Positions 26,766 through 47,840 of a stretch of 64,000 bases of DNA are shown piece by piece. Numbering within the stretch: the first letter of the stretch is position 1; each line of letters begins with the position of its first letter. The position numbers were made by a program, and so were the translations under genes. The notes under the pieces are model-generated. The model saw nothing but the letters and a program-made list of their open reading frames with translations, had not been told where the DNA came from and did no database searches. Source of the stretch: Synechococcus sp. CC9616 (GTDB lineage Bacteria; Cyanobacteriota; Cyanobacteriia; PCC-6307; Cyanobiaceae). The DNA lies in NCBI RefSeq assembly GCF_000515235.1, contig NZ_KI911558.1, positions 2,083,466 to 2,147,465 of the forward strand, written 5' to 3'.

Positions 26766-26778
26766 TTGTGATGCTGAT

Positions 26779-27906
26779 ATGACACGTCACGTGCGTAAGA
26801 TTCCATACACCAAGCCTTCGATTACGGAGCTTGAGGTTGAGTATGCGACTGATGCGGCTAGAAATGGTTGGGGAGATCATTGTTATGATTATATATATCG
26901 CTTTGAAAATGCTTTTAAGCAGTATTTAGGCGTCAAGTATGCCATAGCTACCAGTAGCTGTACTGGTGCGCTGCATATGGGCATGCATGCCTTGGGTATT
27001 GGTCCAGGTGATGAAGTCATCATGGCCGACACAAATTGGATAGCCACAGCTTCGCCAATTGTGCATTTGGGCGCAACACCTGTATTTGTGGATATTTTGC
27101 CTGATAGCTGGTGTGTGGATCCAGAGCAAGTTGAAGCTGCAATCACCTCTAAAACAAAGGCAATTGTTGCTGTTCATCTCTATGGAAACCTTTGCGAGAT
27201 GGACAAGTTGCTTGCCATCGGAGAGCACCATGGTATTCCCGTGATTGAAGATGCGGCAGAAGCTATTGGTTCAATTTATTATGGTAAGGGTGCTGGAAGC
27301 ATGGGTCGATTTGGCGCCTTCTCCTTCCATGGAACAAAAACAATTACAACTGGCGAGGGTGGCATGTTTGTAACTAATGATCCCGACCTCTATGAGTATG
27401 TACTAACGCTCTCCAATCATGGTCGGATGCGTGGGCAGCTCAAACAATTTTGGCCTGACATGGTTGGGTTTAAGTATAAAATGAGCAATATTCAAGCTGC
27501 AATTGGATGTGCTCAAATAGAGCGAATTCAGTTGCTCACTGACTTGAAAAGGGCTATCTTTTTAAATTACTATAAATATTTGAGTGGGCTTCCAATTCGC
27601 ATGAATCCTGAGCCTAAGGGCTGTACCAACAGTTATTGGATGCCTACGTTTGTTGTTAATGATGGGATTTCGTTAAAGCGTGATGAGTTGATTGAAGCAC
27701 TAAAAAGTAAAGGAGTTGATGCTAGAGTATTCTTTTGGCCTTTGAGCTCAACATCAGTAGGTGGGCGAAAAGCTTTTGAAAAGAACTATCTCTCTGAATC
27801 GATTCATTTACGTGCTCTGAATCTCCCTTCACACCATGAACTTTGTCGTAAGGATTCAAGCTTTGTTTCTTCTATTGTTAGATCGTGGATCGAACGACAT
27901 AATTAG
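26779..27906 (+). CDS. DegT/DnrJ/EryC1/StrS sugar aminotransferase
   Basis: 375 residues from ATG at 26779; an in-frame TTG at 26758 would add seven residues. A PLP enzyme that aminates a keto sugar nucleotide. The PLP lysine is Lys 187 in FSFHGTKTITTGEGG; Asp/Glu-rich VIEDAAEAIG precedes it, and TSSCTGALHMGMHALG binds the cofactor phosphate. Later segments (LSNHGRMRGQ and KMSNIQAAIG) are typical of sugar aminotransferases. The formyltransferase downstream suggests that the new amine is N-formylated. Confidence 0.93.
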   Translation: MTRHVRKIPYTKPSITELEVEYATDAARNGWGDHCYDYIYRFENAFKQYLGVKYAIATSSCTGALHMGMHALGIGPGDEVIMADTNWIATASPIVHLGATPVFVDILPDSWCVDPEQVEAAITSKTKAIVAVHLYGNLCEMDKLLAIGEHHGIPVIEDAAEAIGSIYYGKGAGSMGRFGAFSFHGTKTITTGEGGMFVTNDPDLYEYVLTLSNHGRMRGQLKQFWPDMVGFKYKMSNIQAAIGCAQIERIQLLTDLKRAIFLNYYKYLSGLPIRMNPEPKGCTNSYWMPTFVVNDGISLKRDELIEALKSKGVDARVFFWPLSSTSVGGRKAFEKNYLSESIHLRALNLPSHHELCRKDSSFVSSIVRSWIERHN

Positions 27907-27930
27907 TCAAAGACCTTATTTATAGTGCTC

Positions 27931-28677
27931 ATGTCTCCATCGATAGTTGTGTTTGCAGACGCTGAAGTTGGGTTTTGCTGTACACAGTGGTTGATCGACA
28001 ATTACAAGTCAGATTTGACTATGGTAGTCACTACTTCTCAAAATCAGATTTTTGACCTAGCGAAGAATAATGGTGTTTCTTCGCATGTATTCCAGGATGA
28101 TATTTCATATTTGCGGTCTTTCAATGTAGAAGAAACTTTGTGCGATATTGGTTTGTTGCTGTGGTGGCCAAGTATTATAAGCCCTTCTATTATAAACTCT
28201 GCTAGGCATGGGTTCGTCAATACTCATCCAAGTTTCCTTCCGTTTAATCGAGGAAAAAATTATAATTTTTGGGCGCTTGTAGAAGAATGCACCTTTGGAG
28301 TAAGTATTCATACGGTTGAAGAAGGCATTGATTGTGGAGACATTATTTCACAAAAAAAAATTAATTATACTTGGGAGGATACGGGTGAAACTCTTTATTT
28401 CAAGGCAATCGCAGGGATGAAAGAATTGGTTTTTGATACTTATCCGCTCCTTCGACAGTTAAGGTTTCCTAGGAAGAAGCAAGATTTATCAAAAGGCTCT
28501 TTTCATTTTTCATCTGAACTTGAACCCGCATCCATCATCGCTTTGGATCAGCCCACAACTCCTAGACAGTTGTTTAATGTTTTGAGAGCGAGAACCTTTC
28601 AGGGATACCCGGCATGCAGATTTTTAGACAATGGCGTAGAATACGAGGTTAGAATTGACATCACTGAAAGAGAATGA
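27931..28677 (+). CDS. Formyltransferase-family protein, probable sugar N-formyltransferase
   Basis: 248 residues from ATG at 27931 (a GTG at 27925 is a close alternative). The tetrahydrofolate-dependent formyltransferase core has the catalytic triad Asn 97, His 99 and Asp 134 in VNTHPSFLPFNRG and GIDCGDII. The chain is short compared with methionyl-tRNA formyltransferase and the C-terminal part lacks its tRNA-binding region, resembling sugar N-formyltransferases. Placed after the aminotransferase, it most likely formylates the amino sugar. Its stop overlaps the next start (ATGA). Confidence 0.8.
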   Translation: MSPSIVVFADAEVGFCCTQWLIDNYKSDLTMVVTTSQNQIFDLAKNNGVSSHVFQDDISYLRSFNVEETLCDIGLLLWWPSIISPSIINSARHGFVNTHPSFLPFNRGKNYNFWALVEECTFGVSIHTVEEGIDCGDIISQKKINYTWEDTGETLYFKAIAGMKELVFDTYPLLRQLRFPRKKQDLSKGSFHFSSELEPASIIALDQPTTPRQLFNVLRARTFQGYPACRFLDNGVEYEVRIDITERE

Positions 28678-29432
28678 AATATTCTGAATTTAAGAAAAAC
28701 TGTATAGACCAAATCCATGCACAGGGAGTGGACAAAGATCTTTCTGCTGTTACAAGTAAATGGTTTTCATTGGCTAATGGTTATGGATATTCATATCATT
28801 TTGAATGCCTTGGGAGACCTTTAATTCAATATCCTCAAGATATAGTTCAATTTCAAGAGCTGATTTCTCAGGTCTCCCCTGATCTTATTGTTGAAACTGG
28901 AATTGCGCATGGCGGCTCACTTGTCCTTTCTGCTTCAATGCTTTGCCTTTTGGATGTTATGGATGGGCTAGATCCTAGGCAATCTCCTCGGAAAGTTGTA
29001 GGAGTGGACATTGATATTCGGCCACACAACCGCAAGGCTCTTGATGAACATCCCCTGCGCTTCAAGATGGAGCTGATTGAGGGATCATCAATTGATCCTG
29101 AGATTATTCAACAGGTTCGTAGTCATGCCCAGAGATTCGATCGGGTACTAATAGCTTTGGATTCTAATCATACCCATCAGCATGTGCTTGCTGAGCTGAA
29201 TGCTTATGCTGATTTGGTATCTGTAGATAGTTATTGTATCGTTTTTGATACTGTGATTGAAGATTTGCCAAGCGGATCGTTCCCAGATCGCCCTTGGGAT
29301 GTTGGGAATAACCCTAAAACAGCTGTTCGTGAATGGTTAAAGTTTCACGATGAATTTGAAATTGATAGAAGCATCGATAGCAAGTTGCTAATTAGTGTTG
29401 CTCCTGATGGCTACTTACGTCGTGTGTCGTGA
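28674..29432 (+). CDS. CmcI-family methyltransferase-like protein
   Basis: 252 residues. It resembles the cephalosporin hydroxylase / rhamnosyl O-methyltransferase (CmcI) family: an AdoMet-type Rossmann start VSPDLIVETGIAHGGSLVLS, acidic VVGVDIDIR, LIEGSSIDPEII, ALDSNHTHQHVLAEL and SVDSYCIVFDT in this order. Family members methylate hydroxyls of sugars or antibiotics. In this operon it probably O-methylates the sugar made by the neighbours. It overlaps the formyltransferase stop by four bases and is the last gene of this tight run; 170 bases of AT-rich DNA without a gene follow. Confidence 0.75.
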   Translation: MKYSEFKKNCIDQIHAQGVDKDLSAVTSKWFSLANGYGYSYHFECLGRPLIQYPQDIVQFQELISQVSPDLIVETGIAHGGSLVLSASMLCLLDVMDGLDPRQSPRKVVGVDIDIRPHNRKALDEHPLRFKMELIEGSSIDPEIIQQVRSHAQRFDRVLIALDSNHTHQHVLAELNAYADLVSVDSYCIVFDTVIEDLPSGSFPDRPWDVGNNPKTAVREWLKFHDEFEIDRSIDSKLLISVAPDGYLRRVS

Positions 29433-29602
29433 TTGCGTATGATTCTGCAGTTTATATTGCATAGTTTTCGGAATTTAATTATAATCTTGTATTTTAGTAT
29501 GGATTTATTATTCGGAATTCGTCAATTCATTTGATCTTCTGCTGACTGATTAATTATTCTATAATACTTTATGTTAATATAGCAGTACCCTCTGTGTAGC
29601 TA

Positions 29603-30712
29603 ATGCATGAATTTGTAACTATATTTATTCCGACTCACAATCGTCATGGATTGTTGATGAGAAATCTTGTTTGGTTAGAGCAATCTGGATGTCAGATTGT
29701 AATCGCTGATAGCTCGAATACTTCTTTTGAATTAGAAGTTGATAGATTAAATTCTGGCTCGGGCCATAAGGGTAATATATTATATTTTCATATGAATAAT
29801 ATTGATTATTACACAAAGATTGTTTCTGCATTAAAGGCTATTAAAACAACTTTCACTATTATGTGCCCAGATGATGATTTTATAATATGGAAAAATATTA
29901 AATATCTTGTTGCAGAAGCTGTGAAGTCAAATGCTCAAACAGTTGTTGCGAGAGATTTAAGTTTAAAAGAATGTAAAAATGGTTTTGATATTGAAGAATC
30001 ATCAGAATATAGAAAATTTGGGATAAAAAGTCAAGATAATCTTTTACTGCATTTGAAATCAGCGATGTCTCCAATTGTTTGTACATATTACCAACTTCAT
30101 AAGACTTCAATGCTTCTAGACTTATGGTCTCACATGGAAAAGAATAAGAGTCTGATGCCTGGTAATAAGTTGGCTGAGATTGTTTTTCGCTCAGGCTGCT
30201 TTATTAATGGTCCTGTTGTTTTTTGTGATAAAATATTTAGAGTATTGGGTTATGAACCACCTTTAAGGTCATACGATAAGAGTAAAGCCATTCAAAGGTA
30301 TATACTTAACTTCTCAGAGGAAGTAAGGTATCTTCAAGATAATGGTATTTTCAAGGATTTTGTCAACATAATTGCTTCATATATAAATAAGCATCATCCT
30401 GGCTTGTCACATAAGAGTAATGAGATAGCCTTGAATTTCATCATTAATCCTATGTTTCGAAGGATGAAATCAAAGCATGAAATTTTATGGAAATCGCGTT
30501 ATTCATTAGGATTTGACTTTTCTAGTGACAAGGATATGTTTGTTCGCTCTAATGAATCGTTAAAGTACGTTTTTGGTATTAGTAATGATTCGTATCGCCT
30601 TCCCGAGTATTTCATGAATCTTGAATCATACTTTTTGTCTGATGAGAGTGAGTGGAATAACTTAATTAGACTATTATCCTTCCTGAATAAACACAAATTA
30701 GAACCTCTATAA
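29603..30712 (+). CDS. Family 2-like glycosyltransferase
   Basis: 369 residues. N-terminal GT-A signature FVTIFIPTHNRHGLL and the acidic metal-binding segment IMCPDDDFIIW (about residue 95). The rest (110-369) is helical and less conserved; the C-terminus is rich in aromatic, serine and lysine residues. Acceptor and donor are unknown. It may transfer one of the island's activated sugars. It follows a 170-base spacer after the CDP-sugar operon and stands alone before a convergent gene. Confidence 0.7.
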   Translation: MHEFVTIFIPTHNRHGLLMRNLVWLEQSGCQIVIADSSNTSFELEVDRLNSGSGHKGNILYFHMNNIDYYTKIVSALKAIKTTFTIMCPDDDFIIWKNIKYLVAEAVKSNAQTVVARDLSLKECKNGFDIEESSEYRKFGIKSQDNLLLHLKSAMSPIVCTYYQLHKTSMLLDLWSHMEKNKSLMPGNKLAEIVFRSGCFINGPVVFCDKIFRVLGYEPPLRSYDKSKAIQRYILNFSEEVRYLQDNGIFKDFVNIIASYINKHHPGLSHKSNEIALNFIINPMFRRMKSKHEILWKSRYSLGFDFSSDKDMFVRSNESLKYVFGISNDSYRLPEYFMNLESYFLSDESEWNNLIRLLSFLNKHKLEPL

Positions 30713-30800
30713 AAATTTACTACTCGCATGATCATCCGATTGTCAGAATTAAAAGTTTATAAGAGTCAAATAAAAATATATCTCCAGGTATCAAGCTGTC

Positions 30801-31733
30801 TCAGTCCCAATAGTGCCCTAATTTGCTATATTTTTCTTTATTTAGTATATCCACTTGCCTCAATCTTTGGGAGTTTATCAGGTTAAGAGTTCTTTTGCTC
30901 TCTTCTATCTTAGATTTTGCAACAATAGTTTTCCTGTTGACTGGACCGAGTTTTTCTAATGATTCTACCCATTGCCTTGCAATACTATATGAATCATCAA
31001 AGCTTTTAGTTATATTAAGCAATAGCTCAAACCAAATCTGCTGATTTTTGAATAAGCTATTAACGTTTATGATGAATGTATCTGATATACTAGTATTGAG
31101 CTCTTCAATAATTTTTGCAAGATAATAGTTCTCAATTATGATCGGTCTTTTACCTCCAGCTGTAAATAATGATTCTATTGAATATCCTTCTTTATAAGCA
31201 TCCTTGAATGTCTCAAAAATTACTTCGTTGATCGAATAAGCATAACCTTCAACTTCTAGATGTTGAAGGCATCCATGAGAGTATCCGCTTATAACCATAG
31301 GTATAATATCTCTTATTGAGAAAAGATATATAAGTTTAAGCCCACTACATGATTTTTTCACTAAATGAATTAATTTTGACACTTGCTCAGGGCTTGTTGG
31401 TAATAATTCATTGGACAGACAAGCGATATGATTCGTTTTACCATTAAATAACTGACTTATTTTTTCAACAAGTATATCCGGTTCGTAGATATGGTTAAAA
31501 AGTGTCTGTTTTATCTCAATCGGCTTAAAATTGATAATATTTAGTGACGAGTCTACCAATAGCTTATAGTGCCTACCTTCGTAGGTATAATTTTTCAATG
31601 GTAAAAAAGGAAGGACCATCGATTGAAGACTTGTGGAGCCACATTTTCCGAATCCAAAGTTAAGAATCAATGTATTTTGCTCTCCTCGAAGCTTTTCCAG
31701 ATTATTGATATTTTTTATTGTTGAAATGTTCAT
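30801..31733 (-). CDS. Sulfotransferase-like protein
   Basis: 310 residues. The N-terminal segment LNFGFGKCGSTSLQSMV (about residues 24-40) matches the 5'-phosphosulfate-binding loop of PAPS-dependent sulfotransferases; a serine-containing FSIRDIIPMVISGYSHG follows at about 137, the place of the 3'-phosphate loop. The remainder is diverged. It could transfer sulfate to a polysaccharide, but the conserved arginine-serine pattern is only partial, so activity is uncertain. It is AT-rich and on the strand opposite to its neighbours. Confidence 0.55.
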   Translation of the reverse strand: MNISTIKNINNLEKLRGEQNTLILNFGFGKCGSTSLQSMVLPFLPLKNYTYEGRHYKLLVDSSLNIINFKPIEIKQTLFNHIYEPDILVEKISQLFNGKTNHIACLSNELLPTSPEQVSKLIHLVKKSCSGLKLIYLFSIRDIIPMVISGYSHGCLQHLEVEGYAYSINEVIFETFKDAYKEGYSIESLFTAGGKRPIIIENYYLAKIIEELNTSISDTFIINVNSLFKNQQIWFELLLNITKSFDDSYSIARQWVESLEKLGPVNRKTIVAKSKIEESKRTLNLINSQRLRQVDILNKEKYSKLGHYWD

Positions 31734-32213
31734 TTAATTTTCTGTCTGATATTATTTACATTCTATACTATCATGATTTAAAATTCAACAACCAATATTA
31801 GTTGGTCATGATGACCAGATATGGATATTATTTAAAATATAAATCGTAAATAATCTGTCTTGGTAACAAACTTTTGACCATGACTCCTCTTCTCTGCACT
31901 TTTTATCTCATATTATTCTGTTTTATTTATTTTCTTCTGTTATATTTGCTTCTTCTTGTGATTTTTGAAATGACTACATATTTATTGTGCGCTTGTTTCC
32001 TTGTAAACTGCTGGGGAGGCTCAGGAAAAACTAATACATCATTTAGCTGATCGTGTCTGCAGTTTAAGGATCGTTTGGCCTTATACCTGCTACCACCAAA
32101 GGAGAAGGAAACAAATATATGTCTCTGCCTTGACAGCGCTTCACGAACATGATTTATGATAATTACTTAAAGCGTTCTACTTTAAAGTTCACCCTCCTTA
32201 TTTTATTGATAGC
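31734..32213. other. AT-rich intergenic region with a short hydrophobic frame
   Basis: About 480 bases between divergent genes. On the plus strand 31880-32050 is an ATG frame of 56 codons rich in Leu, Phe, Ile and Tyr, one membrane-like stretch, without a clear ribosome-binding site. It probably is chance in AT-rich DNA. The region should hold the promoters of the two divergent genes. Confidence 0.4.
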
Positions 32214-33485
32214 ATGAAATTAGTTTGTTTTCCATGTGAAATTCAGCACCGAGAATTTGACTCCAAGTTATTGTTAGCAATGCGTATCGTCTCCAAAACT
32301 AAAGGAGATTGTGCTGTATTAATTGGTTATGATAAATACTTTTCATCAATTCTAAAAAATACTAAAAGCGTATTTTTGCTAGATAAAAGCATGAGTACTA
32401 TAATGTATAATGCTAGAATAAAGCCCTGCAAACTTAATGACGGCATTGTTTTTATTAATGATGAAGAAGGTGTTAATGATCTTGATGAAACCCCTGAGGC
32501 TTTGGATATTAGGCTTGATCCAAATTCAATTAGTTATATTGACAAGTATTTGGCCTGGGGAGAGGATGATGCAAACTTTTTTGCTAGCAGAAAATCAGGG
32601 TTATCTTCAAAAATAGTCATCACAGGGAGTCATAGGTACGATCTCCTAAATCATATTGGAAGACAAATATATCAGGAAGATATAGCTGCCATAAAATCCT
32701 TATTCGGTTCATTCATATTGTTTAATGACAATCTGATGGTCGATCAATATGATAAAACCTATGTTCCACCAACTAATCAATTTGCTGCTGATGCTAAATC
32801 ACAAGCTAGAGCTGAACGAGAATGGGATAATATTGTTAGCGAGCATGTACAGAGACGCACAAAAGTCCGGGATTTTCTTCTTAAATTGTCTAAAAATAAT
32901 TTTAACGTTGTAGTAAGACCACACCCAGTTCACGACCCAATTTACTGGCATGAAAATTTTCGTTTAAATTCTAGAATACATACTTTATATCAAGGACCTG
33001 TAGAACCTTGGATCCATTCAGCAGATGCTGTTATAACAACTGGTTGTACTACTGGTTTACAAGCTGCTTTGGCTAACAAGCCAAGTTTTGAGCTACCTGT
33101 GACGGCAAAATCAAAGGCCTTTAGTTCTAAAGTTCTACCTAAATGTCATACAATTACAGATTTCAAAAATCTCACCTCAGCAAATCTCTCTGATCATTTT
33201 TCTAGCCGCCAATCTGAAATTAAGAAAAGATGGTTTACTTCTGAGTCTTCCACAAAACAAATGTCTGAATTAATTATCACTCACCTCCACTCTTTAAAGT
33301 CGCACGGCTCCTTGAATTGGCTTAATAATATTTCACGTCTTCAACCTTTACCTCCTAAGTGGAGAAACATAACTACTGATCTTGTCCTCAGAAGAGCTAC
33401 ATCGATCAATAAAATACTTGGCACTGAGGACAAAGTTAAAATATCAAAAGTAAATAACAGTCTATATCTTGTCCATCGAAAATAG
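32214..33485 (+). CDS. Surface carbohydrate biosynthesis protein
   Basis: 423 residues. The C-terminal half has the nucleotide-sugar or CDP-alcohol-type pattern VVVRPHPVHDP ... VEPWIHSADAVITTGCTTGLQAALANKPSFELP, like GT-B enzymes and the surf_polysacc group (surface carbohydrate biosynthesis protein). The N-terminus (MKLVCFPCEIQHREFDSKL) also matches that group. Function in the family is unknown; a glycosyl- or glycerophosphotransferase role is a guess. It ends two bases before the end of the convergent HisF-WbpG fusion gene. Confidence 0.7.
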   Translation: MKLVCFPCEIQHREFDSKLLLAMRIVSKTKGDCAVLIGYDKYFSSILKNTKSVFLLDKSMSTIMYNARIKPCKLNDGIVFINDEEGVNDLDETPEALDIRLDPNSISYIDKYLAWGEDDANFFASRKSGLSSKIVITGSHRYDLLNHIGRQIYQEDIAAIKSLFGSFILFNDNLMVDQYDKTYVPPTNQFAADAKSQARAEREWDNIVSEHVQRRTKVRDFLLKLSKNNFNVVVRPHPVHDPIYWHENFRLNSRIHTLYQGPVEPWIHSADAVITTGCTTGLQAALANKPSFELPVTAKSKAFSSKVLPKCHTITDFKNLTSANLSDHFSSRQSEIKKRWFTSESSTKQMSELIITHLHSLKSHGSLNWLNNISRLQPLPPKWRNITTDLVLRRATSINKILGTEDKVKISKVNNSLYLVHRK

Positions 33486-33487
33486 TC

Positions 33488-35527
33488 TTAATAAGATTTA
33501 CTCCATCCTGTGTCTTCCTTCCAAGACCATACTCGTGGATCGCGAAAATGGTCTGCAATCCGATCAAAATCCCGTTCACTCATTCCAACATAATTAAGCC
33601 ACCTCGCTAAATCCTTTGGTTTAATATGATCCATTTTTTCTACAAGTTTGATGCCTTCTGTTCTGCTCAAAATTCCTGCACGAATATCCTTTGACGCGTG
33701 ATCTGTGCATCGACCATAGCCGAATTTAATAAATTTTAGATAGTCATGAATACCATTTTCGTGCATATCATCTAAATTAGATCCTTTTCTGTAAGTCCTC
33801 TCAAAAGGAGTATCACTTACCTCGAAACCATATTTCTCTACTACTAATTCCAAATGAGTATTCGACTCCCATGGTATGTAGTGACCCAGAAATATTTGTC
33901 TTAGACCAATATTGCTTATGTCTTTGTCACTTGGATATTTCCAAGGTGTCATATCCTTATCGGTGATTCCATCGATTCCTACGAAGAAATTCCAATCAAA
34001 ACCTCTTCCATCATGTTCAGTGCGTTCTCTATAGTTCATTTCTGGAAAGTCACTCATAGAAAACTGCCCACATAAATCAGCGTAACCATGCTCACCCCAG
34101 AATATTAAGGGGATTTTTTGTTGCACCGCAATTCGAGGAGCTGTCGTGTAGATGCCGACGTGTGAATGCCAATTCATATCTCCCATGACTATGAAAGCTA
34201 TTTTGTTCAGTTTCTTCAATGTTTTGACTGATGGACTAATAACTAAATGATCACAATCAAAAGCATTTCTCATATTCCATAAGTTTTTCCAGCCAATATC
34301 TGTATAATTATTTCCATTGTATGTTACAAGAAGAGGATTTAATCCCATTACCTCTTTTATATAGTGGGTTTGATAATACGAATCTTTTCCTCCGCTAACA
34401 GATACAATACAATCATAGCTTTTCGATAAATTTTTTGAATTAATTATTTTGGATAAATACTCCTTTAGCTGATCATACCTTTTGTTTGTTTGTGAAAGTT
34501 TTACTTTCGATATTTTGCACCCCATGCACTCACCATCTTCAGCAAATTGCATAGGAGCTGCGCTAATAGATGTGTATAAGCATGATGTACATTGGCGAAT
34601 TTTTGTCAGCTTAGAACCATCATATTTGTCTTTATGAAATGTGGAGTTTTCACGCGCTTTTTCCATTAATAAATTTTTTTCTGTCTGTGAATATTCTGGT
34701 TCTCGTTTAATGAAGGGAGAATCAATTGATGGATATCTAACGTTTTTACAGCCACTTTCTACCAACTCTTTCTTAATATTAAAGTACGAAAGTTCGGTGA
34801 AATAAAATACATTAGAAGCTGCTACTGCTGAAACATTCTTGCTGTTCAATCCATGCATAAAATGCGAATTTGTTGTGGCCCCGCTATTAATGATAATTGG
34901 AATATTGATTACCATTTTTTCGATTACTTCTATTATATGTTTATCATATCCAAGGGTTGAACCGTCATTATTTATAGAGCTGATGATTAGTTCACCTACT
35001 CCCAATTCTGTTGCGTATTCGATTGCCCTATCAAGAGTAAAGCCTGTATTTATCTTTCCTTTCGCTTTCCACACTGAACTCCCTGTAGAATCATGTCTAA
35101 TATCAATTGATCCTGTAATTGCCTGTTTTCCATATCTTAAAGACGATTTTCTGATTAAGTCCGGGTTATCAAACAGAGAGCTATTAATTACCACTTTGTC
35201 TGCACCAGCTTGAAATAGTTCATCAATTTGCGATGAGCTCCGAATTCCACCACCAATTGTTAACGGACAGTGGCAAAACTTTGCCGCTTTTTCTACAAGT
35301 TCAATAAATGAACCTTTTCCAATATTGTGATATTTGTCTTCTCGTCTAGAATCCATTATGTCTGTATCACTTATATTGTTAAGAATGATCTCATCTGCAT
35401 TCCAGTCTGAGAGTCTTTTGATGGTTGGTATTGGATCGCCAATCGCTTGAAAATATTTGAAGAGTTGACTTCTTACAAGAAGTCCCTCTTTTACCAAAAT
35501 AATGGGTATGAGTCTTTTGAGTGTCAT
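33488..35527 (-). CDS. HisF-like / N-acetyl sugar amidotransferase fusion
   Basis: 679 residues. Residues 1-255 resemble HisF, the (beta-alpha)8 barrel that passes ammonia from HisH: LTIGGGIRSSSQ, ADKVVINSSLF and SINNDGSTLGYD. The first catalytic aspartate of HisF (in CLDVKDG) is replaced here (IILVKEG), so imidazole ring synthesis is unlikely. Residues from about 310 resemble WbpG/PseA-type N-acetyl sugar amidotransferases: Cys pairs CTSC and CMGC, and PP-loop VSVSGGKDSYY, which activates an acetamido group with ATP. The two parts are normally separate genes (hisF2 and wbpG). The upstream hisH gene abuts it (TAA directly followed by ATG). Confidence 0.88.
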   Translation of the reverse strand: MTLKRLIPIILVKEGLLVRSQLFKYFQAIGDPIPTIKRLSDWNADEIILNNISDTDIMDSRREDKYHNIGKGSFIELVEKAAKFCHCPLTIGGGIRSSSQIDELFQAGADKVVINSSLFDNPDLIRKSSLRYGKQAITGSIDIRHDSTGSSVWKAKGKINTGFTLDRAIEYATELGVGELIISSINNDGSTLGYDKHIIEVIEKMVINIPIIINSGATTNSHFMHGLNSKNVSAVAASNVFYFTELSYFNIKKELVESGCKNVRYPSIDSPFIKREPEYSQTEKNLLMEKARENSTFHKDKYDGSKLTKIRQCTSCLYTSISAAPMQFAEDGECMGCKISKVKLSQTNKRYDQLKEYLSKIINSKNLSKSYDCIVSVSGGKDSYYQTHYIKEVMGLNPLLVTYNGNNYTDIGWKNLWNMRNAFDCDHLVISPSVKTLKKLNKIAFIVMGDMNWHSHVGIYTTAPRIAVQQKIPLIFWGEHGYADLCGQFSMSDFPEMNYRERTEHDGRGFDWNFFVGIDGITDKDMTPWKYPSDKDISNIGLRQIFLGHYIPWESNTHLELVVEKYGFEVSDTPFERTYRKGSNLDDMHENGIHDYLKFIKFGYGRCTDHASKDIRAGILSRTEGIKLVEKMDHIKPKDLARWLNYVGMSERDFDRIADHFRDPRVWSWKEDTGWSKSY

Positions 35528-36166
35528 TTACATACCTCCAAAGAAGTTTTTAATCAAGCTTAAACCTTGATATTGTGATTTTTCAGGATGGAACTGTACT
35601 CCCAATAGAGAATTCTTTTCAATTGCTGCTGTGACTTCTGAATCTCCATGTTTATAGCATGCCACCCGATTATTAATGTCCCAGCATTTTACATAGTAAG
35701 AGTGTAGGTAGTAGAAGTCACCATTTAGTAGCTCTAGGTTTTTATTTCCAACCGCGCAGCTTTGGTACGTAGAATTCCAACCAATTGATGGTACAGGAGC
35801 CTTACTATTATCTAAGAATTTTACACTCGCATCAAAGTATCCAAGGCCTGTCTCATTTTTTGAGCTTTCCTCACTTTGTTTGCATAAAAGTTGCATACCT
35901 AAGCATATACCTAAACCCGGAACGTCGCTCTTTACCAGTTTCTCTATTACACGATCAAGCTTTTTCCCCCTGATATTTTTCATCCCTTCGTCAAATGTAC
36001 CTACTCCAGGCAATATAAAGCCGCATTGATTTTGGCTCTGTTTGAAATTATCTTCATGATCAACAGGCATTGCATCAAAATTTAAGAAGTTCAATGCATT
36101 TACGAGTGAACCAATATTTCCTACACCGTGGTCAATGATCAAAATCTTACTTGTTCTTTTTTTCAT
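35528..36166 (-). CDS. Glutamine amidotransferase, HisH-type
   Basis: 212 residues. Class I glutaminase with DHGVGNIGSLVNAL, catalytic cysteine in GLGICLGMQLL and histidine/glutamate in GVQFHPEKSQ. HisH supplies ammonia in histidine synthesis; here it is next to the HisF-WbpG fusion, not to his genes, so it probably feeds ammonia for acetamidino-sugar formation as in LPS clusters such as that of Pseudomonas O5. Its stop touches the start of the fusion gene. It is divergent from the RmlD-like gene, with only 40 bases between. Confidence 0.9.
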   Translation of the reverse strand: MKKRTSKILIIDHGVGNIGSLVNALNFLNFDAMPVDHEDNFKQSQNQCGFILPGVGTFDEGMKNIRGKKLDRVIEKLVKSDVPGLGICLGMQLLCKQSEESSKNETGLGYFDASVKFLDNSKAPVPSIGWNSTYQSCAVGNKNLELLNGDFYYLHSYYVKCWDINNRVACYKHGDSEVTAAIEKNSLLGVQFHPEKSQYQGLSLIKNFFGGM

Positions 36167-36206
36167 CAGTGTTAAAGTCTATAATCAGATTATTTTATTT
36201 TATTGA

Positions 36207-37082
36207 ATGTTCCGAAAAATAATTGTCTTAGGTGCCAGAGGCATGGCTGGCCAGGCATTCTATAAATACTTCAAGGAGCGCGATCTTGATGTATTGGGCG
36301 TATCGCGTAATGGTCCTGATCTTAATCTTAATCTTGTCACTGAATACGATTTCTTAGAGGATATTTTTTGTTCTTTTAAGCCATGTATTGTTGTTAACTG
36401 TGTAGCCCTAGTATCATTACAAGCTTGTGAAGATAACCCAATTCTTTCCTACCAAGTTAATTCTTTGTTGCCTTCTAAGTTGGCTTCTTCATCTAGGCGT
36501 CATAATTTTTTGTTCCTTCATATCTCTACAGATCACTATTATTTGTTGGATGATGTCCCCTCTCTTCACTCCGAAATTGATCCTATTATTCTAATAAATA
36601 GTTATGCCAAGTCAAAGTATCTTGGCGAGTTATATGCTTCCTTGTGCGACAGAAGTTTAATTATCAGGACAAATATTACTGGTTTCCGCAATTCTGTTCA
36701 TCGTCCGACATTTATTGAATGGATGATTGATTCGCTTCAAACTTCCGCTTCGATTCAGCTTTTTACAGATTTTTACACATCTACTATTGATGTATCCACG
36801 TTCTGTTGCTTTGTTTATTCGTTGGCTCAGATAGGTTGTTCTGGTTTATTTAATATTGCATCTTCACGGTCAATATCAAAATTCAAATTTGCTTCCTTAC
36901 TGGCAAAAGAAATGAAGGTAGACTTGTCCGGTGCTTCTGAAGCCAGTGTTCAAGGACTACATCCTGCGAGAGCCTCAGATCTTGGATTAGATTGTTGCAA
37001 AGCAGAAGCAATACTCGGTTTAGTTATGCCATCGCCAGAGGAAGTCGTATGTTCTCTTTGGCGTCAATACGACCTATTATAA
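36207..37082 (+). CDS. RmlD-like sugar nucleotide reductase/epimerase
   Basis: 291 residues. An SDR of the RmlD substrate-binding type: IIVLGARGMAGQAFYKY binds NAD(P), VVNCVALVSLQACEDNP and INSYAKSKYLGE (tyrosine-lysine pair at about residue 135) are catalytic. RmlD reduces the 4-keto group in dTDP-L-rhamnose synthesis; the true substrate here is uncertain and a role with the adjacent sialic-acid-like sugar genes is possible. Its stop lies 16 bases before the NeuB-family start, so they are likely one operon. Confidence 0.8.
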   Translation: MFRKIIVLGARGMAGQAFYKYFKERDLDVLGVSRNGPDLNLNLVTEYDFLEDIFCSFKPCIVVNCVALVSLQACEDNPILSYQVNSLLPSKLASSSRRHNFLFLHISTDHYYLLDDVPSLHSEIDPIILINSYAKSKYLGELYASLCDRSLIIRTNITGFRNSVHRPTFIEWMIDSLQTSASIQLFTDFYTSTIDVSTFCCFVYSLAQIGCSGLFNIASSRSISKFKFASLLAKEMKVDLSGASEASVQGLHPARASDLGLDCCKAEAILGLVMPSPEEVVCSLWRQYDLL

Positions 37083-37098
37083 ATAATGTGTTATAGTC

Positions 37099-38187
37099 AT
37101 GATTCTTTTATTGCTTAATTGTTCTATGCATATTGGTACCTCTGAAATATCCTACAATGCTCCTAGTTATTTTATTGCAGATATTGCGGCAAATCATGAC
37201 GGTAGTCTATCTCGCGCAATTGATCTGATAAATCTCTGTGCTGAGGCAGGTGCTAATGCTGCTAAATTTCAAAACTTTTTTGCTGATAGTATTGTTTCCA
37301 AATTGGGTTTTAGTAAGCTGAAAGATCTTGATTCTCATCAGTCTTCTTGGGAATCTAGTGTTTATGAAACATATGATCGTGCGTCGATTTCTTTGGATTG
37401 GTCAAGCCATTTAAAGAAGGCTTGTGATAGTGCTGGTATTGATTATTTGACTGCGCCTTACGATTTATCTATCTTAGATTTTTTAGATTCATATGTATGT
37501 GCCTGGAAAGTCGGATCCGGAGATATCACCTGGTTAGAAATGATTGAAAATCTTGCAATACGTGGCAAGCCTTTGTTATTAGCAACAGGGGCTTCATCTT
37601 TTGACGAGGTTAAAATCGCCTTTGATTGCGCAAAAAGATTAACCTCTGAAATTGTTCTTATGCAATGCAATACTAACTACACAGGGTCATTATCCAACTT
37701 GCGACATGTAAATTTATCTGTGCTTAAGACATATGCTAGATATTTCCCTGAAGCAATTCTTGGTCTTTCAGACCATACACCAGGTCACTCAAGCGTCTTA
37801 GGCGCAATTACTTTGGGGGCTCGAGTCATAGAAAAGCACTTCACGGATGACACATCACGTCCAGGTCCTGATCATCCCTTTTCTATGGATTCCACATCAT
37901 GGACTGAGATGGTCGTAAGGTCACGAGAGCTTGAGGCCGCCCTAGGCGATGGCGTGAAACGTGTTGAGGCGAATGAGATTGAGACAAACATCCTTCAGAG
38001 ACGCTCCTTACGGGCTGCATGTGATATCCCAGCCAAGACGGTTCTTGATAGCTCGCTTGTTTCCGCACTTCGCCCTTGTCCTCCTGACGGTTTACCACCC
38101 TCTCACCTTCAACGCATTGTTGGAAAAACCACTATTGATGCAATAGCAAAAGGGGATCTAGTTCTTTTGGGTAACCTTTATGCCTGA
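37099..38187 (+). CDS. N-acetylneuraminate synthase family protein (NeuB/SpsE-like)
   Basis: 362 residues. It condenses a 6-carbon amino sugar with phosphoenolpyruvate to give a nine-carbon sialic-acid-like sugar. The barrel shows FIADIAANHDG, AGANAAKFQNF, YLTAPYDLSIL, WKVGSGDITWLEM, LLATGAS and GLSDHTPG. A C-terminal SAF antifreeze-like domain follows (LRAACDIPAKTVLDSSLVS and VGKTTIDAIAKGD). ATG at 37099 is the first start; ATG at 37126 is an alternative. The stop overlaps the next start by one base. Confidence 0.92.
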   Translation: MILLLLNCSMHIGTSEISYNAPSYFIADIAANHDGSLSRAIDLINLCAEAGANAAKFQNFFADSIVSKLGFSKLKDLDSHQSSWESSVYETYDRASISLDWSSHLKKACDSAGIDYLTAPYDLSILDFLDSYVCAWKVGSGDITWLEMIENLAIRGKPLLLATGASSFDEVKIAFDCAKRLTSEIVLMQCNTNYTGSLSNLRHVNLSVLKTYARYFPEAILGLSDHTPGHSSVLGAITLGARVIEKHFTDDTSRPGPDHPFSMDSTSWTEMVVRSRELEAALGDGVKRVEANEIETNILQRRSLRAACDIPAKTVLDSSLVSALRPCPPDGLPPSHLQRIVGKTTIDAIAKGDLVLLGNLYA

Positions 38188-38861
38188 TGCGAGCTATCGT
38201 TATACCTGCTTTTAACGAAGAAGCAACGCTAGACGAAATCTTACTTTCTGTATATGATTTTTGTGATCTTGTTGTGGTTGTCAACGATTGCAGCACAGAT
38301 GCGACTTTAGAAATTTGTAGTCGTTATGATTATGTTCAGACAATTACCAATAGCATCAATCGCGGATATGAATATAGTGTGTTAAAAGGATTGTACCATT
38401 CTTTAAAATTAAATGCATCGTCAATTTTAACTATTGATGCGGATGGTCAACATCCAATTCATGAGATCCCGAAACTTTTTGATTTTATCGAAAACCATGG
38501 TTATTCAATTTCAATAGGTTCTCGCTCGAAGTTACCTAGGATATCTGAATACATCTTCTCAATTTATAGTTACATCTTTTTCGGTGTATGGGATATAACT
38601 TCTGGCTTTAAATGCTATAGGTCAAGTGTAATTAGCAATAATGTGTTTCCAGACTACCCCTCTGTAGGCACATATTTTACAATCAAATGTTTACTTGATG
38701 GCTTCAGAGTTAAATCATCTTATATTATTACTCACGATAGAATCGAAGGAGTTTCAAGATTTGGCTTGAGTATTACTGCTGAATTTAAAATTCTAGTAGC
38801 TTTTTTTAATGCAATTATCCTTCATCTTCAAAGGTTTTTACTAATACTTCGTCTTCGATAA
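38187..38861 (+). CDS. Small family 2 glycosyltransferase
   Basis: 224 residues. GT-A fold with the N-terminus IVIPAFNEEATLDEIL, DDC-type segment VNDCSTDATLEI and DADGQH, resembling dolichol-phosphate mannose synthase-like enzymes. Only the catalytic domain and a short hydrophobic tail are present. It probably transfers an island sugar to a lipid carrier or chain. The last 47 bases overlap the end of the convergent carbamoyltransferase gene; both reading frames look intact there. Confidence 0.8.
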   Translation: MRAIVIPAFNEEATLDEILLSVYDFCDLVVVVNDCSTDATLEICSRYDYVQTITNSINRGYEYSVLKGLYHSLKLNASSILTIDADGQHPIHEIPKLFDFIENHGYSISIGSRSKLPRISEYIFSIYSYIFFGVWDITSGFKCYRSSVISNNVFPDYPSVGTYFTIKCLLDGFRVKSSYIITHDRIEGVSRFGLSITAEFKILVAFFNAIILHLQRFLLILRLR

Positions 38862-40662
38862 TTAAGACATCAATTTCTGTTTTAAGAAATACATCGTAAG
38901 CATCCTTTGAGTTGCTTACTATTGGTTCTCCATGTAGATTAAAAGATGTATTTAGCAGACCATAACAACCTGTTCTTAGTCCAAATGCTTCTATAAGATC
39001 ATAGTATTGTACATTTGTTTTTCGATCTACTATTTGGGGTCTGCAAGTTTCATCATATGGATGAATCGCTGCTTCTAGCAGTTTTTTGCCAGCTTTTGTA
39101 GTCTCACAGCACATTGTCATATATCTGTAGCTATTAATATCGGTGTCTAGATTAAAGTACTCTTCAGCATATTCTTCAATAACCGAACAAGCAAACGGCA
39201 TCCAAAAATCACGATTTTTAATCTTTTCATTGATAATCTTTTTTATTTTGTTGCTTCTGGGATCTGCCAAGATCGATCTGTTTCCTAGAGCTCTTGCACC
39301 AAATTCTTCTCTACCAGAGCATCTTGCTACGATTAATCCATTGCATAACATTGATGCTACATCATCTTGATTATATCTTATTTTTCGAATTGTAATTTCT
39401 CGATCTTTGTTCCAGATTAGTTGACTACTTAATGTTTTATCTTCTTGTGTTACTGCGTTTTGGCCCAAATACGGCGTGAATGTTGTCATACTATCAATAT
39501 GCTTTTTTTCTTTGAATAGATAAGATAATACACAGCCCATTGATTGTGATGAATCATCTGGAGATGGTGGTACAAATAAGTTTTTAACACTAGTTTTTTT
39601 TGCTATTAACATATTATTCTTGACGTTCATGCATACACCCCCAGCCATAACCAAATTGTTAATTTTCAAATTTTCAGTAAGGTTGCTTATCCACTTTCCA
39701 ACTAGATACTCTGTATATCTCTGAATAGCACCACTTATTGAATCAAATCGCTCACCATCTAGCATTTCTTTAATAGCAAAATATAAATCTTTTGGTTTAT
39801 TTTTAAAGACAAAATTAAATTTCTCTACATCTTGTAAATCTTTGAATTTATTTACTATATGCTCAGAGTATTCCTCTTTGCAGTATGGTGCCATACCCAT
39901 GACTTTGTATTCATGTTCGTTCGGTTTTAAACCAAGAATAAGAGTGACATATCTGTATAGTCTACCAATAATAAAGCTATCACCAGAGCATATTTTTTCT
40001 ATTTTTAATTTTCCTTCCTCTCTCTTGTAAACATATGCTGTATAATTAAGATTATCACCAAAAGCATCTAATGTACAAACTATACAGTCATCCGCATGAT
40101 AAATTTTCGGAGCCATAAAGTAAGCATAGTTTGCATGGCTCCTAGAGTGATCCATGAACACTATGTCATCAACACTAATTCCTAGATGATGAGATACAAC
40201 GTCCTTTCTAATATTTGCAAATCTGAGTACCTGTTTAGAAGATACGTGGCCTGAGTCACCGTGCATTTCATTAATTATTTCGTTCCAGAATTTTTTACCT
40301 GGAAACTGCTCTACATCTAATTTATCCCTAAAAACTTCTAATTGACTGATCTCTGCTTTTTCGTACAGGCGAGGCTTCCATACCTCTCTTTGTTCTCTTA
40401 TATAGTCTTGAATTGTGAATTTTGTATAGTGTCTAGTCAAAATATACCCTGGACTCCACATTGTCGATACAAATACTACTTTGTCAATATCTTTCCTCTT
40501 TAAGTTATTCTTTTTTAGTAAAAAATTAATTGCTTGAATCGGATATCGCTCATCATTTTTGACTCTTGATAACCTTTCTTCGGATAATGTCCCAATTAGT
40601 TTTCCCTCTATCCAAAGACTTACAGTAGAATTTTGTTCCCAGTTAATGCCTACTACTTTCAT
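38815..40662 (-). CDS. Carbamoyltransferase (NodU/TobZ family)
   Basis: 615 residues. The N-terminal ASKHA-like domain begins VVGINWEQNSTVSLWIEG and has DHSRSHANYAYFMAP (His/Asp metal site); the C-terminal YrdC-like domain shows REEFGARALGNRSILADPRS. Such enzymes attach a carbamoyl group from carbamoyl phosphate to sugar hydroxyls. Its AT-rich codon use equals that of the other minus-strand genes up to 45,267, suggesting joint origin. It is the last gene of that block and overlaps the glycosyltransferase on the other strand. Confidence 0.9.
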   Translation of the reverse strand: MKVVGINWEQNSTVSLWIEGKLIGTLSEERLSRVKNDERYPIQAINFLLKKNNLKRKDIDKVVFVSTMWSPGYILTRHYTKFTIQDYIREQREVWKPRLYEKAEISQLEVFRDKLDVEQFPGKKFWNEIINEMHGDSGHVSSKQVLRFANIRKDVVSHHLGISVDDIVFMDHSRSHANYAYFMAPKIYHADDCIVCTLDAFGDNLNYTAYVYKREEGKLKIEKICSGDSFIIGRLYRYVTLILGLKPNEHEYKVMGMAPYCKEEYSEHIVNKFKDLQDVEKFNFVFKNKPKDLYFAIKEMLDGERFDSISGAIQRYTEYLVGKWISNLTENLKINNLVMAGGVCMNVKNNMLIAKKTSVKNLFVPPSPDDSSQSMGCVLSYLFKEKKHIDSMTTFTPYLGQNAVTQEDKTLSSQLIWNKDREITIRKIRYNQDDVASMLCNGLIVARCSGREEFGARALGNRSILADPRSNKIKKIINEKIKNRDFWMPFACSVIEEYAEEYFNLDTDINSYRYMTMCCETTKAGKKLLEAAIHPYDETCRPQIVDRKTNVQYYDLIEAFGLRTGCYGLLNTSFNLHGEPIVSNSKDAYDVFLKTEIDVLIIEDEVLVKTFEDEG

Positions 40663-40710
40663 TGATTCAACTTATTTTCAAAATTTTAGCACGCCACTTG
40701 TGTTCTCTGC

Positions 40711-42738
40711 TTAGTTTAATCTCTCAAATCCGGAGTGGCACAATGGGCCGTCAATCAACTTCAAAAGGTCATCATTACTTTTGCAGTTTGAAAGCATTTG
40801 GATTACTTTTTTGAATTCTTCTAAATATTTTTTTATTATATCAGAGCTGTGACTTGTCGATGCGTAGAAATTTGTCCCTGATAAATAACCTGCTTTTAGC
40901 ATTTCTTGAGTTATTAATGTTTTACATGCTATTGAGTCTCTGTTCTTGACCACAAAGCCTGCCAATGATGCGATGCCAGTAATACTATATTCTATGTCAT
41001 TTTCTGTGAATATTTCTTTCCAGCTTTCTTTTACCTTATTTCCAAGCTGTGTAATATATTCCCAGCTTTTTTCCCGTTCCATTATTTCCAGTGTTTTGAG
41101 AGCTGCTGTAGGCCCAATCCGTTCAGTCCAGAAAGTGCTACTAATAAAGGTATTTTGCGCTTCATCCATATATTCTTCTTTCCCTATTACTGCTGTGATT
41201 GCGTAACCATTCCCTAGTGCTTTCCCAAATATACAAATATCTGGCGTGACCTTATATTTTTTATGCAGTCCCCCAAAGGTTTCTCTAAATCCAGATGTGC
41301 ATTCATCAAATATAAGTACAACTCCTTTCTCGGTGCATAGTTTTCTTACATTATCTAAGTAACCTGATGTTGGCTCAGTATTTCTTTCTACTTCCATTTT
41401 CACTACACCTATTTCACGATTTTCAAGTATTAGTTTTAACGCCTCCAAGTCATTGTAATTAAATGGATAAACTGTGTCTTGAAGAGCTTTTGGTACCCCT
41501 TTTGGTTTAAGACCTGTTAGCAGGTGTTCATCAAGTCCCTCACCGTTTCTCAGATTTGTGGCTAAATACCAGTCGTGCCATCCATGGTATCCGCATATTG
41601 CCACTCCATCTTTCCCAGTTGCCGCTCTAGCGATTCGAATCGCGATAGCATTGGCCTCACCACCTGTTCGTGCAAAACGTACTCTGTTTGCCCATGGGTG
41701 TATCTTGACTAACTTCTCAGCTAGATAAACTTCTTCTGGGCAATTAAGTGTCGACATATTGCTTCTCCCAATTACTTCTTTCACTGCTTCGTCTATTTCT
41801 TCTCTTGCATATCCTAGAGTGTTAGTGCCTATTCCCATCATTGACATATCTATGAATACTCGACCATCCAAATCTTTTACTCTGCATCCATATGCGCTGT
41901 CGTAATACGTTGGCCAGTTGTTTGGTAAAAATATTTCTGCTCTTTTCGAGAGTAACATATTACCGCCCGGAATAACTTTTTTGGCCCTTCCCCATAGTTT
42001 CTCTCCCGTTGACTTTTTCATGCCTTCGTTACGTTTGTGCATCAAATTACTATCAAAAATATTAGGATTAAGTTCTTTCAACTTCAGAACCTCTTTCCAT
42101 CCTGCCCCGATGCTGTCGTTCAGGTGTTGATCAATTCTTCTTAATAAGTCTATGTCCTCTTTCTCATCTACTGTCCATCTTAGATAAGAATAATCCTCCG
42201 CATTTTTTATACAGTGTCTTTTGACTTGGTCAGTATTTTTCATCCAAGGTGTCACATGCTCTCTTTCTTCGTTGCTATTTGCCTTTTCATATGCACTTTG
42301 TAGTACTTCCATTGAAAAGACCTCTATATCCAATCCGTCAGGATATGTTGGAGGGTTGCAGTTACTTATGTAATCAACTTTCTTATTCCTGAAGGTTCTT
42401 ATTGCATCATCTATTAGGTTTGGATCAGCTAATGGACAGTCTCCTGTAATTCTTACAATTATATCTCCTACGTATAATTTGGCTGCATGATAAAATCTAC
42501 TAAGCACATCTATTTCCTCTCCCCTATAGCATTTAATACCATTTTGCACAGCCAACTTGCAGAGCTCATCGTCGCTAGTTTTTTTTGTTGTCGCCAGTAT
42601 TATTTCGTGTGTTTCTTCGGAACGTTTGAGTCTGCTTATTAATAGCTCTAATAAACTAATCTTCCCTACTTTCATCATGACTTTGCCCGGCAAGCGTGTT
42701 GAATTGTATCTTGCTTGTATAACTATGATTGTTTTCAT
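40711..42738 (-). CDS. Cytidylyltransferase - class III aminotransferase fusion
   Basis: 675 residues. Residues 1-240 resemble SpsF/NeuA-type CTP transferases (IIVIQARYNSTRLPGKVM, ITGDCPLADPNLID). From about 248 onwards it resembles glutamate-1-semialdehyde aminomutase-type PLP enzymes: KKVIPGGNMLLSKR, VRFARTGGEANAIAIR, CGYHGWHDWYL, VLIFDECTSGFR and the PLP lysine in DICIFGKALGNGY. The two activities may make and activate a nonulosonic or related amino sugar. The start touches the preceding methyltransferase gene by one base. Confidence 0.9.
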   Translation of the reverse strand: MKTIIVIQARYNSTRLPGKVMMKVGKISLLELLISRLKRSEETHEIILATTKKTSDDELCKLAVQNGIKCYRGEEIDVLSRFYHAAKLYVGDIIVRITGDCPLADPNLIDDAIRTFRNKKVDYISNCNPPTYPDGLDIEVFSMEVLQSAYEKANSNEEREHVTPWMKNTDQVKRHCIKNAEDYSYLRWTVDEKEDIDLLRRIDQHLNDSIGAGWKEVLKLKELNPNIFDSNLMHKRNEGMKKSTGEKLWGRAKKVIPGGNMLLSKRAEIFLPNNWPTYYDSAYGCRVKDLDGRVFIDMSMMGIGTNTLGYAREEIDEAVKEVIGRSNMSTLNCPEEVYLAEKLVKIHPWANRVRFARTGGEANAIAIRIARAATGKDGVAICGYHGWHDWYLATNLRNGEGLDEHLLTGLKPKGVPKALQDTVYPFNYNDLEALKLILENREIGVVKMEVERNTEPTSGYLDNVRKLCTEKGVVLIFDECTSGFRETFGGLHKKYKVTPDICIFGKALGNGYAITAVIGKEEYMDEAQNTFISSTFWTERIGPTAALKTLEIMEREKSWEYITQLGNKVKESWKEIFTENDIEYSITGIASLAGFVVKNRDSIACKTLITQEMLKAGYLSGTNFYASTSHSSDIIKKYLEEFKKVIQMLSNCKSNDDLLKLIDGPLCHSGFERLN

Positions 42739-43388
42739 TATTCGATTACTGAATTTTTCCTTATTATAGAGGTTTTGACCCAGTTGTTACGTTCGTCAGT
42801 ATATTTGCCTGTCGATATATCTCTTACACTAGAGTCCATAATTGTATAGTGTGTGTGCCATAAAAACATTTCTTCCGGCTTTGTTTTGTAGCTCTTTATA
42901 CCCCCTTTATGATGATATTTGTTGCTCATGTCAGCCTTTGACCAAAAGTCGTGGATGATTATCCAACTTTTATTTTTTGTGACTCTATTTCCTTCCGCAC
43001 TTATTGAAAACAATTCTTCTCTATCACATAAGTACAAGCAGAATCCGTAGATCAGTATATCAATACTGTTAGTTTTAACTGGTAGGCTTTCTGCACTTCC
43101 TTTTCGTATATTTATTCCATGTGTCTTACCTGTTTCTATTGCTGCTGTACTAGGCTCTATACCTAGATATTCCCAATCATAATTCTCCCTTAGAGCTTTT
43201 AGTCTTCTCCCATCACTACAACCTATTTCTAGTAAACTAACCCTGTTATCAAGATGTTCTGCAATTTCTTTTATATATTTACATATGGGATCATATTTTA
43301 AAAATTGGTTCTTATCATAGTTCTTATTTCTTTTATACCATTCGTCCCCTTCGGTGTTCATAAAGACTTCTCTTTGTTTGTCCGCCAT
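42738..43388 (-). CDS. Class I SAM-dependent methyltransferase
   Basis: 216 residues. The AdoMet-binding motif is LLEIGCSDGRRLKAL (about residue 52), with EYLGIEPS, GSAESLP and IDILIYGFCLYLC as later motifs. The second half is shorter than in typical sugar methyltransferases and contains an Asp/His-rich IIIHDFWSK segment. Substrate unknown; it may methylate the sugar or a hydroxyl/carboxyl of the glycan. Its start lies inside the last 31 bases of the aldo/keto reductase gene, another sign of tight packing. Confidence 0.85.
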   Translation of the reverse strand: MADKQREVFMNTEGDEWYKRNKNYDKNQFLKYDPICKYIKEIAEHLDNRVSLLEIGCSDGRRLKALRENYDWEYLGIEPSTAAIETGKTHGINIRKGSAESLPVKTNSIDILIYGFCLYLCDREELFSISAEGNRVTKNKSWIIIHDFWSKADMSNKYHHKGGIKSYKTKPEEMFLWHTHYTIMDSSVRDISTGKYTDERNNWVKTSIIRKNSVIE

Positions 43389-45267: not shown

Positions 45268-45371
45268 GCTTTATTTGCTCTTTTGATCCTAACATGTTGC
45301 CAATTTCCATTTTTTTCCCATCTTTTTGCTTGTTATGCTTCTGCTAACCTTTAAGTCTATAATTTTCGTTC

Positions 45372-46457: not shown

Positions 46458-46459
46458 TT

Positions 46460-47290: not shown

Positions 47291-47421
47291 GTTTATAATT
47301 TTTTGTCAGATTATCTTTCTATAATTGTATAACTATTTCCTCCTGCCTTCATTCTGCTGTTATTTATTATCTAGAACTAATAATTACAGTTGGTTTCCTC
47401 CTGGATTGCTATTTATTCATT
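47291..47421. other. AT-rich spacer after the dioxygenase gene
   Basis: T-rich DNA with no supportable gene; base composition changes to GC-rich at about 47420 where the GNAT pseudogene begins. This change is the apparent right edge of the AT-rich island. Confidence 0.5.
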
Positions 47422-47840
47422 GCTGCCGGCAATTTTGGTGGGTATCAGATACACCTGTTCCACTAACACCGCTACTGGGGTGTGGAGCAGTTCTTCAATT
47501 ACCCTGGGGCCCATGTCGCTGCTCTTCAGATGGTCAGCTCAAGCTATGTCCTTCACACGGCCCGGCTGATGCTGTTGGAGGTTGGCCAGCCGAAGCTCGC
47601 TAACCGTTTGCTGTGCCTGTGGCTCACTACGGCATCGTTTTAGGACAGCACAACTTCAGCCGGCCAAAACTGCTTCCACGGGGCCGAGAATGCATGGCGA
47701 TCGAAGAGCTGCTGCTGTTTTAGTCCCTTGGCTGGGCGTCAGAACTTTCCCGAGGTCAAGCTAGTGCTGGCTGGAGGCATAGCGAACCAGCCGGATCGGG
47801 GTCACGCGTCTGGAAGCCGCAGCACTTCATCTTGCTCCCC
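47422..47840 (-). pseudogene. Decayed copy of the GNAT acetyltransferase gene
   Basis: The minus-strand sequence aligns with the gene at 22381-22851 over most of its length: shared stretches around GAGCAGTTCTTC (47484 region), CATGGCGATCGAA and the 22-base segment 47784-47805. The copy has many substitutions, insertions and deletions and in-frame stops such as TTTTAGTCCC, so no protein of useful length remains. It lies in the same orientation as the intact copy and just upstream of uvrB. It marks the right border of the polysaccharide island. Confidence 0.85.
47784..47840 (+). repeat. Right copy of direct repeat flanking the polysaccharide island
   Basis: Counterpart of 22815-22871: the bases 47784-47805 and 47826-47840 are identical to the left copy, those between mostly so. 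It is located at the 5' end of the GNAT pseudogene, 40 bases before uvrB. Confidence 0.85.

Follow-up and report, generated by a model that had tools for sequence, protein, structure and literature searches.

Background

Acetamidino sugars are known from the synthesis of nonulosonic (pseudaminic) acid. The closest described counterparts of the genes considered here are HisH2-HisF2-WbpG of Pseudomonas aeruginosa O5, WbuX-WbuZ of E. coli and PseA/PtmG of Campylobacter, and to our knowledge what ties HisF2/HisH2 to WbpG/PseA is mostly evidence from gene neighbourhood and from genetics. PtmG converts CMP-Leg5Ac7Ac to CMP-Leg5Am7Ac, and an acetamidino NulO is present in the non-Sg1 LPS of Legionella pneumophila (PMC3766260). 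The O-antigen cluster of L. pneumophila Sg6/Sg12 encodes PseG, a glutamate-1-semialdehyde aminomutase-like protein, a cytidylyltransferase, HisF4 and HisH2, and further an LPS biosynthesis protein, an aldo/keto reductase, DegT, CapD and NeuB (PMC3694923). The sole N-acetyl sugar amidotransferase (NASAT) of solved structure, LpNASAT, has an open pocket and was solved without a partner (PMC10607449).

The gene pair and its layout

The window, i.e., the whole stretch of 64,000 nucleotides from Synechococcus sp. CC9616 that was analysed, encodes a HisH-type glutaminase and, directly behind it, a single chain in which a HisF-like barrel is joined to a PP-loop amidotransferase. The features of this pair are as follows.

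33488..35527, (-), HisF2(WbuZ)-WbuX fusion, 679 aa, one uninterrupted ORF with 26 fused homologues
35528..36166, (-), HisH-type glutaminase, 212 aa (TIGR01855 176.8 bits, cut-off 105.4), Cys-His-Glu triad intact, 0 bp upstream of the fusion start
34742..35527, (-), HisF2/WbuZ-like (beta/alpha)8 barrel, residues 1 to ~262 (TIGR03572 198.7 bits over residues 1-243; VIA-align Z 32-34 to HisF structures)
35495..35497, (-), Leu11 codon, replacing the catalytic Asp11 of HisF in the alignment to HisF
34598..34741, (-), linker, residues 263-310 (~48 aa), with a REPxY motif; modelled as ordered, with a helix at 281-292
33491..34597, (-), WbuX/WbpG/PseA-type N-acetyl sugar amidotransferase domain, residues 311-679 (TIGR03573 282.4 bits over residues 311-658, above the cut-off of 203.2; 8wex_A Z 36.5, rmsd 2.9 A, 349 aa)
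34517..34591, (-), tetracysteine motif C313/C316/C334/C337, equivalent of the LpNASAT Zn site (PMC10607449)
34379..34396, (-), PP-loop SGGKDS, residues 378-383 (sequence motif)

The TAA stop of HisH is followed immediately by the ATG of the fusion (ggaggtatgTAAATG), and the two genes share one frame. Canonical HisF, HisA and HisH genes are present elsewhere in this genome (one contig, 2.65 Mb), so the HisH and fusion genes form an additional set. A sequence-only reading had placed a HisF part and a PP-loop amidotransferase with zinc cysteines in one chain beside HisH, and each element of that description is borne out by the family match to each half, by the four cysteines with SGGKDS and by the abutting glutaminase gene.

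Barrel residues and family assignment

Barrel residues were aligned and numbered by reference to HisF-LUCA, in which numbering the fusion N-terminus (RLIPIILVKEG) has Leu as residue 11. The substitution of a catalytic aspartate by leucine, as claimed in the sequence-only reading, is confirmed by this alignment but is not special to the present chain. At position 11, every fusion that extends over it (26) has Leu and every canonical HisF row (also 26) has Asp; among 30 separate HisF2 proteins (a set that takes in five WbuZ-like rows binned by script as canonical, and in which some rows are near-duplicates) the residue is Leu in 19, Asp in 7, Phe in 2, Gln in 1 and Arg in 1, i.e., Asp11 is absent from 23. 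On these alignments, loss of Asp11 is the rule across the HisF2/WbuZ family and no distinguishing trait of the fusion.

The ammonia-receiving features that had been thought to remain are indeed there: the gate residues R5, E46, K99 (fusion K111) and E167 (fusion E179) are all found in the window's fusion, along with D98 (fusion D110), and these five together with Q123 are invariant among the fusions wherever they can be read (26-27 rows). Alignment of the D130- and D176-equivalent segments with HisF likewise finds both aspartates (fusion D142 and D188), and they are present in 27 of 27 fused rows, as are G177 and G203, with N103 in 24 of the 27, over six phyla. Other barrel positions are less uniform, with Arg at position 82 of the GGGI loop in 22/27 fusions, Ser in place of G202 in the window's group, and Asn in place of D51 in the window's fusion and two close relatives only. 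The PP-loop and the tetracysteine motif occur in every fused row (27/27), and the HisH triad is intact in all 54 aligned rows.

WbuZ (TIGR03572) is the model nearest to the fusion barrel despite a score below its curated equivalog cut-off (198.7 vs 299.7 bits); that of AglZ-HisF2 (NF038364, 168.4 vs 310) is missed too. Most cyanobacterial HisF2 proteins that adjoin WbuX likewise fall short of the WbuZ cut-off. The HisF cyclase model TIGR00735 gives the fusion 156.9 bits against a cut-off of 294.6, and with Leu in place of Asp11, Asp130 being retained, the chain does not classify as a cyclase.

Distribution and origin of the fusion

A fused-alignment search yielded 28 loci, which, with loci from cyanobacterial genomes added and duplicates removed, gave 27 fused rows including the window's. 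The fusion sought in other genomes was thus found as 26 further homologues, the rows being spread over Cyanobacteriota, Pseudomonadota, Thermodesulfobacteriota, Myxococcota, Actinomycetota and Verrucomicrobiota. Isolates among the carriers include Desulfovibrio sp. A2, Rhabdaerophilum calidifontis, Magnetospirillum aberrantis and Leptolyngbya sp. PCC 6406, and many others are MAGs. Within the Cyanobacteria the distribution is patchy, with the fusion in 5 of the 37 sampled genomes above the WbuX cut-off. HisH is a nearly constant neighbour: of the 26 fused loci that have it, 23 show its end -4 to +44 nt upstream from where the fusion starts, two have it ~860 nt upstream and one has it directly downstream; no separate HisF2 was found at any fused locus. 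A REPxY-like linker motif occurs in most fused homologues and is absent from the separate HisF2 proteins examined.

In the amidotransferase (WbuX) tree the fusions make up one side of one branch (91/99), and nearest to them are the unfused proteins of L079, L027, L009, L081 and L080, where HisF and WbuX are neighbouring genes. In the HisF tree the fusions and their unfused sisters group with HisF2 proteins, apart from canonical HisF (split 97, SH-aLRT); the fusions fall there into two groups with long branches, and a single fused clade is not rejected (p-AU 0.36). By these trees the fusion apparently had a single origin. No relative of the single fused protein was found in viral contigs, nor any full-length match in phage records; plasmid records contain related trios, as separate genes.

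Several long open frames were rejected as fusions of this kind: G027 (open-frame length 702), in which a stop and a 78-bp gap lie between the genes; G200 and G394, whose ORFs are of another type and contain a weak WbuX-like domain; and 1824-aa frames that are NRPS-like. The last (L047:4167-9641 and L053:3270-8744) have an SGGKDS PP-loop and a WbuX-like stretch, and condensation, AMP-binding and carrier domains were found in that of L047. Other ways of joining such parts also came to light. L022:2788-4086 and L023:2778-4091 encode HisF2-HisH fusions (432 and 437 aa within the sequence examined) with a separate WbuX alongside, an alternative way of joining the trio, and WbuX-like domains are contained in ORFs of 657 aa (L045:6620-8593) and 611 aa (L044:4612-6447), the former with an N-terminal class-II glutamine amidotransferase domain, i.e., a different ammonia source in one chain.

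Structure predictions

The AlphaFold2 model of the fusion alone (pLDDT 87.7, pTM 0.88) suggests, by its pTM, that barrel and amidotransferase have a defined mutual orientation. The complex with HisH, whose prediction had been proposed as a check, was modelled as a single chain in which the HisH stop was read as Gly (pLDDT 87.5, pTM 0.81). Residues 2-485 of this joined model overlay yeast HisHF (1jvn_A) with Z 39.6 over 447 residues at an rmsd of 2.5 A, an overlay that spans both domains, so in the model HisH and barrel are arranged as in imidazole glycerol phosphate (IGP) synthase; residues 519-892 overlay LpNASAT (8wex_A) with Z 36.5 over 349 residues at 2.9 A. The short artificial link may favour contact between HisH and barrel, and known HisH-HisF complexes were part of AlphaFold2 training, for which reasons the model supports, and does not prove, docking of HisH on the fusion barrel in the manner of IGP synthase.

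Genetic setting and probable product

The pair lies in a low-G+C island with further genes of a nonulosonic acid type, listed below.

26001..48000, unstranded, low-G+C island holding the cluster (32-45% G+C vs ~60% in most flanking DNA)
26758..27906, (+), DegT aminotransferase of LegC/PseC type (LegC 286.9, PseC 246.6 bits, neither reaching its cut-off)
37099..38187, (+), NeuB/PseI-family nonulosonic acid synthase (Pfam NeuB; NeuB 241, PseI 209 bits, neither reaching its cut-off)
40711..42738, (-), single ORF combining an SpsF-type cytidylyltransferase with a class-III aminotransferase (family matches)
43358..44266, (-), aldo/keto reductase (family match)
44263..45267, (-), PseB, UDP-GlcNAc 4,6-dehydratase (inverting) (TIGR03589 496.2 bits, cut-off 407.8)

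The low G+C of the cluster fits horizontal acquisition, and the island is likely an acquired surface-glycan island. The G+C of the window drops again from ~56 kb onward. The cluster also encodes a carbamoyltransferase. Among the window genes scanned for Pse pathway equivalogs, PseB is above its cut-off, and the PseC-like and NeuB/PseI-like proteins are below the Pse and Leg cut-offs. Related fusions adjoin PseB and PseC (L040) or PseG, PseI and PseF (L054), all above curated cut-offs, and because of this company an acetamidino nonulosonic acid is the likely product.

A second setting was seen at about ten fused loci (L042, L057, L058, L060, L061, L063, L069, L070, L072 and L076). Its genes, which vary in combination from locus to locus, code for a DUF4910 protein, an AsnB-like protein and a number of methyltransferases, and no nonulosonate genes are present within the sequence examined around these fusions. 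With such fused relatives in a different gene context, nonulosonic acids may not be the substrate of every fusion. An extra stand-alone WbuX is encoded near some fusions (L060:3-491, L070:1215-2345, L072:664-1782, L074:352-1827, L076:617-1735 and L078:3184-4638), and all of these but that of L060, which is too short, branch in the tree with the stand-alone WbuX of G188 and G315. Where an extra WbuX accompanies the fusion, this suggests two amidotransferase steps within one cluster.

Mechanism and alternative explanations

We think it likely, with good though not full confidence, that the protein is a covalently joined HisF2-NASAT enzyme which, partnered by the adjacent HisH, channels ammonia to an acetamidino-forming domain. 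HisH would hydrolyse glutamine to release ammonia, which would pass into the HisF2 barrel from below by way of its conserved gate (R5/E46/K99/E167) and cross this barrel, devoid of cyclase chemistry, to reach the attached PP-loop domain. There, a nonulosonic acid, either free or as its CMP form, would have its N-acetyl carbonyl activated with ATP, and ammonia would displace AMP to leave an acetamidino group; the ATP step follows a proposal in PMC10607449. The scheme builds on what is shown here, namely the fusion, the intact glutaminase triad, the kept gate, the lost Asp11 and the NulO gene context. As for an IGP synthase-type channel, the gate is present in the chain, and HisH docking at the barrel is seen in the predicted model only; passage of ammonia into the NASAT pocket, the ATP chemistry and the exact substrate are presumed.

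The barrel might be more than a pipe, which we regard as possible but on balance doubtful: its phosphate loops and D130/D176 would bind a phosphate-bearing ligand (e.g., a nucleotide sugar) that switches HisH on in the manner of PRFAR in IGP synthase, with the fusion coupling substrate sensing to ammonia release. There is room for such a role because D130, D176 and the phosphate loops, needless for a mere conduit, are kept over six phyla despite the loss of Asp11, but the Arg at position 82 in most fusions and the Ser at 202 in the window's group speak against it, and the residues may be retained for the fold. We give somewhat less credence to the wider proposal that the fusion clade is a separate enzyme class, a ligand-gated ammonia relay. 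Its ex-cyclase face (D130/D176 and phosphate loops) would sense the substrate of the attached amidotransferase or dock with it, and other phyla would have recruited the relay to a second pathway outside nonulosonate synthesis (DUF4910, AsnB-like, methyltransferases). That separate PP-loop amidotransferases exist, some of them without HisF in the sequence examined (e.g., L052), would suit a fused barrel that serves purely as a structural scaffold or for dimerisation, the PP-loop domain taking free ammonia; this is improbable, however, with HisH kept beside the fusion almost everywhere, its triad intact and the gate residues kept.

Retention of D130 and D176 is also what a protein still making imidazole glycerol phosphate for histidine synthesis would display, but Leu11, the low score to the hisF model and the canonical HisF and HisH genes elsewhere in the genome make that role barely credible. 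Nor do we see any real chance that an assembly or frame error has joined two separate genes. Such an error could be imagined from the unfused HisF-WbuX order of sister loci such as L046, with its stop and 78-bp gap, but the genome is a single contig and the 26 further fused homologues, with their conserved linker motif, exclude chance joining and refute the idea, which the sequence-only reading had itself named as fatal to its case.

Comparison with known systems

The separate parts and their association were already known, and the conserved barrel-amidotransferase fusion is apparently a widespread, undescribed variant; no account of it as an entity was found in the open-access literature searched. 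That such a fusion occurs naturally and has been kept across six phyla argues strongly, and independently, for barrel and amidotransferase acting as one ammonia-delivering complex, and HisH with the fusion offers a two-protein system for testing the ammonia route and the acetamidine chemistry, and for structure.

Compared with yeast HisHF (1jvn, 1ox5), the HisH-on-barrel arrangement and the gate residues are alike and ammonia transfer is presumably alike, whereas the fusion is without the cyclase Asp11 and ammonia is thought to exit to a third, attached domain. Its C-terminal half shares fold, PP-loop and tetracysteine Zn site with LpNASAT (PDB 8WEX), which, in the available part of PMC10607449, is a stand-alone protein with an unusually open pocket, discussed without a HisF or HisH partner. 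With Campylobacter PseA/PtmG, of the acetamidino pseudaminic/legionaminic acid pathways, the kind of reaction is the same by family, and relatives of the fusion stand in the same pathway context (PseB, PseC, PseG, PseI, PseF); PseA and PtmG are named as stand-alone genes, whereas the fusion has a barrel attached. The window's cluster resembles the L. pneumophila Sg6/Sg12 O-antigen cluster, in which the trio consists of separate proteins (PMC3694923). The closest likeness is to HisH2-HisF2-WbpG and WbuX-WbuZ (TIGR03573, TIGR03572, NF038364), with the same three activities by family, i.e., glutaminase, HisF-like barrel and PP-loop N-acetyl sugar amidotransferase, and a separate HisF2 that commonly is without Asp11 too. 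Here, in contrast, barrel and amidotransferase form one chain with a linker between them, and the barrel scores below the curated WbuZ and AglZ/HisF2 cut-offs. The protein is most aptly classed with the known HisH2-HisF2-WbpG/PseA system, of which it is a fused variant.
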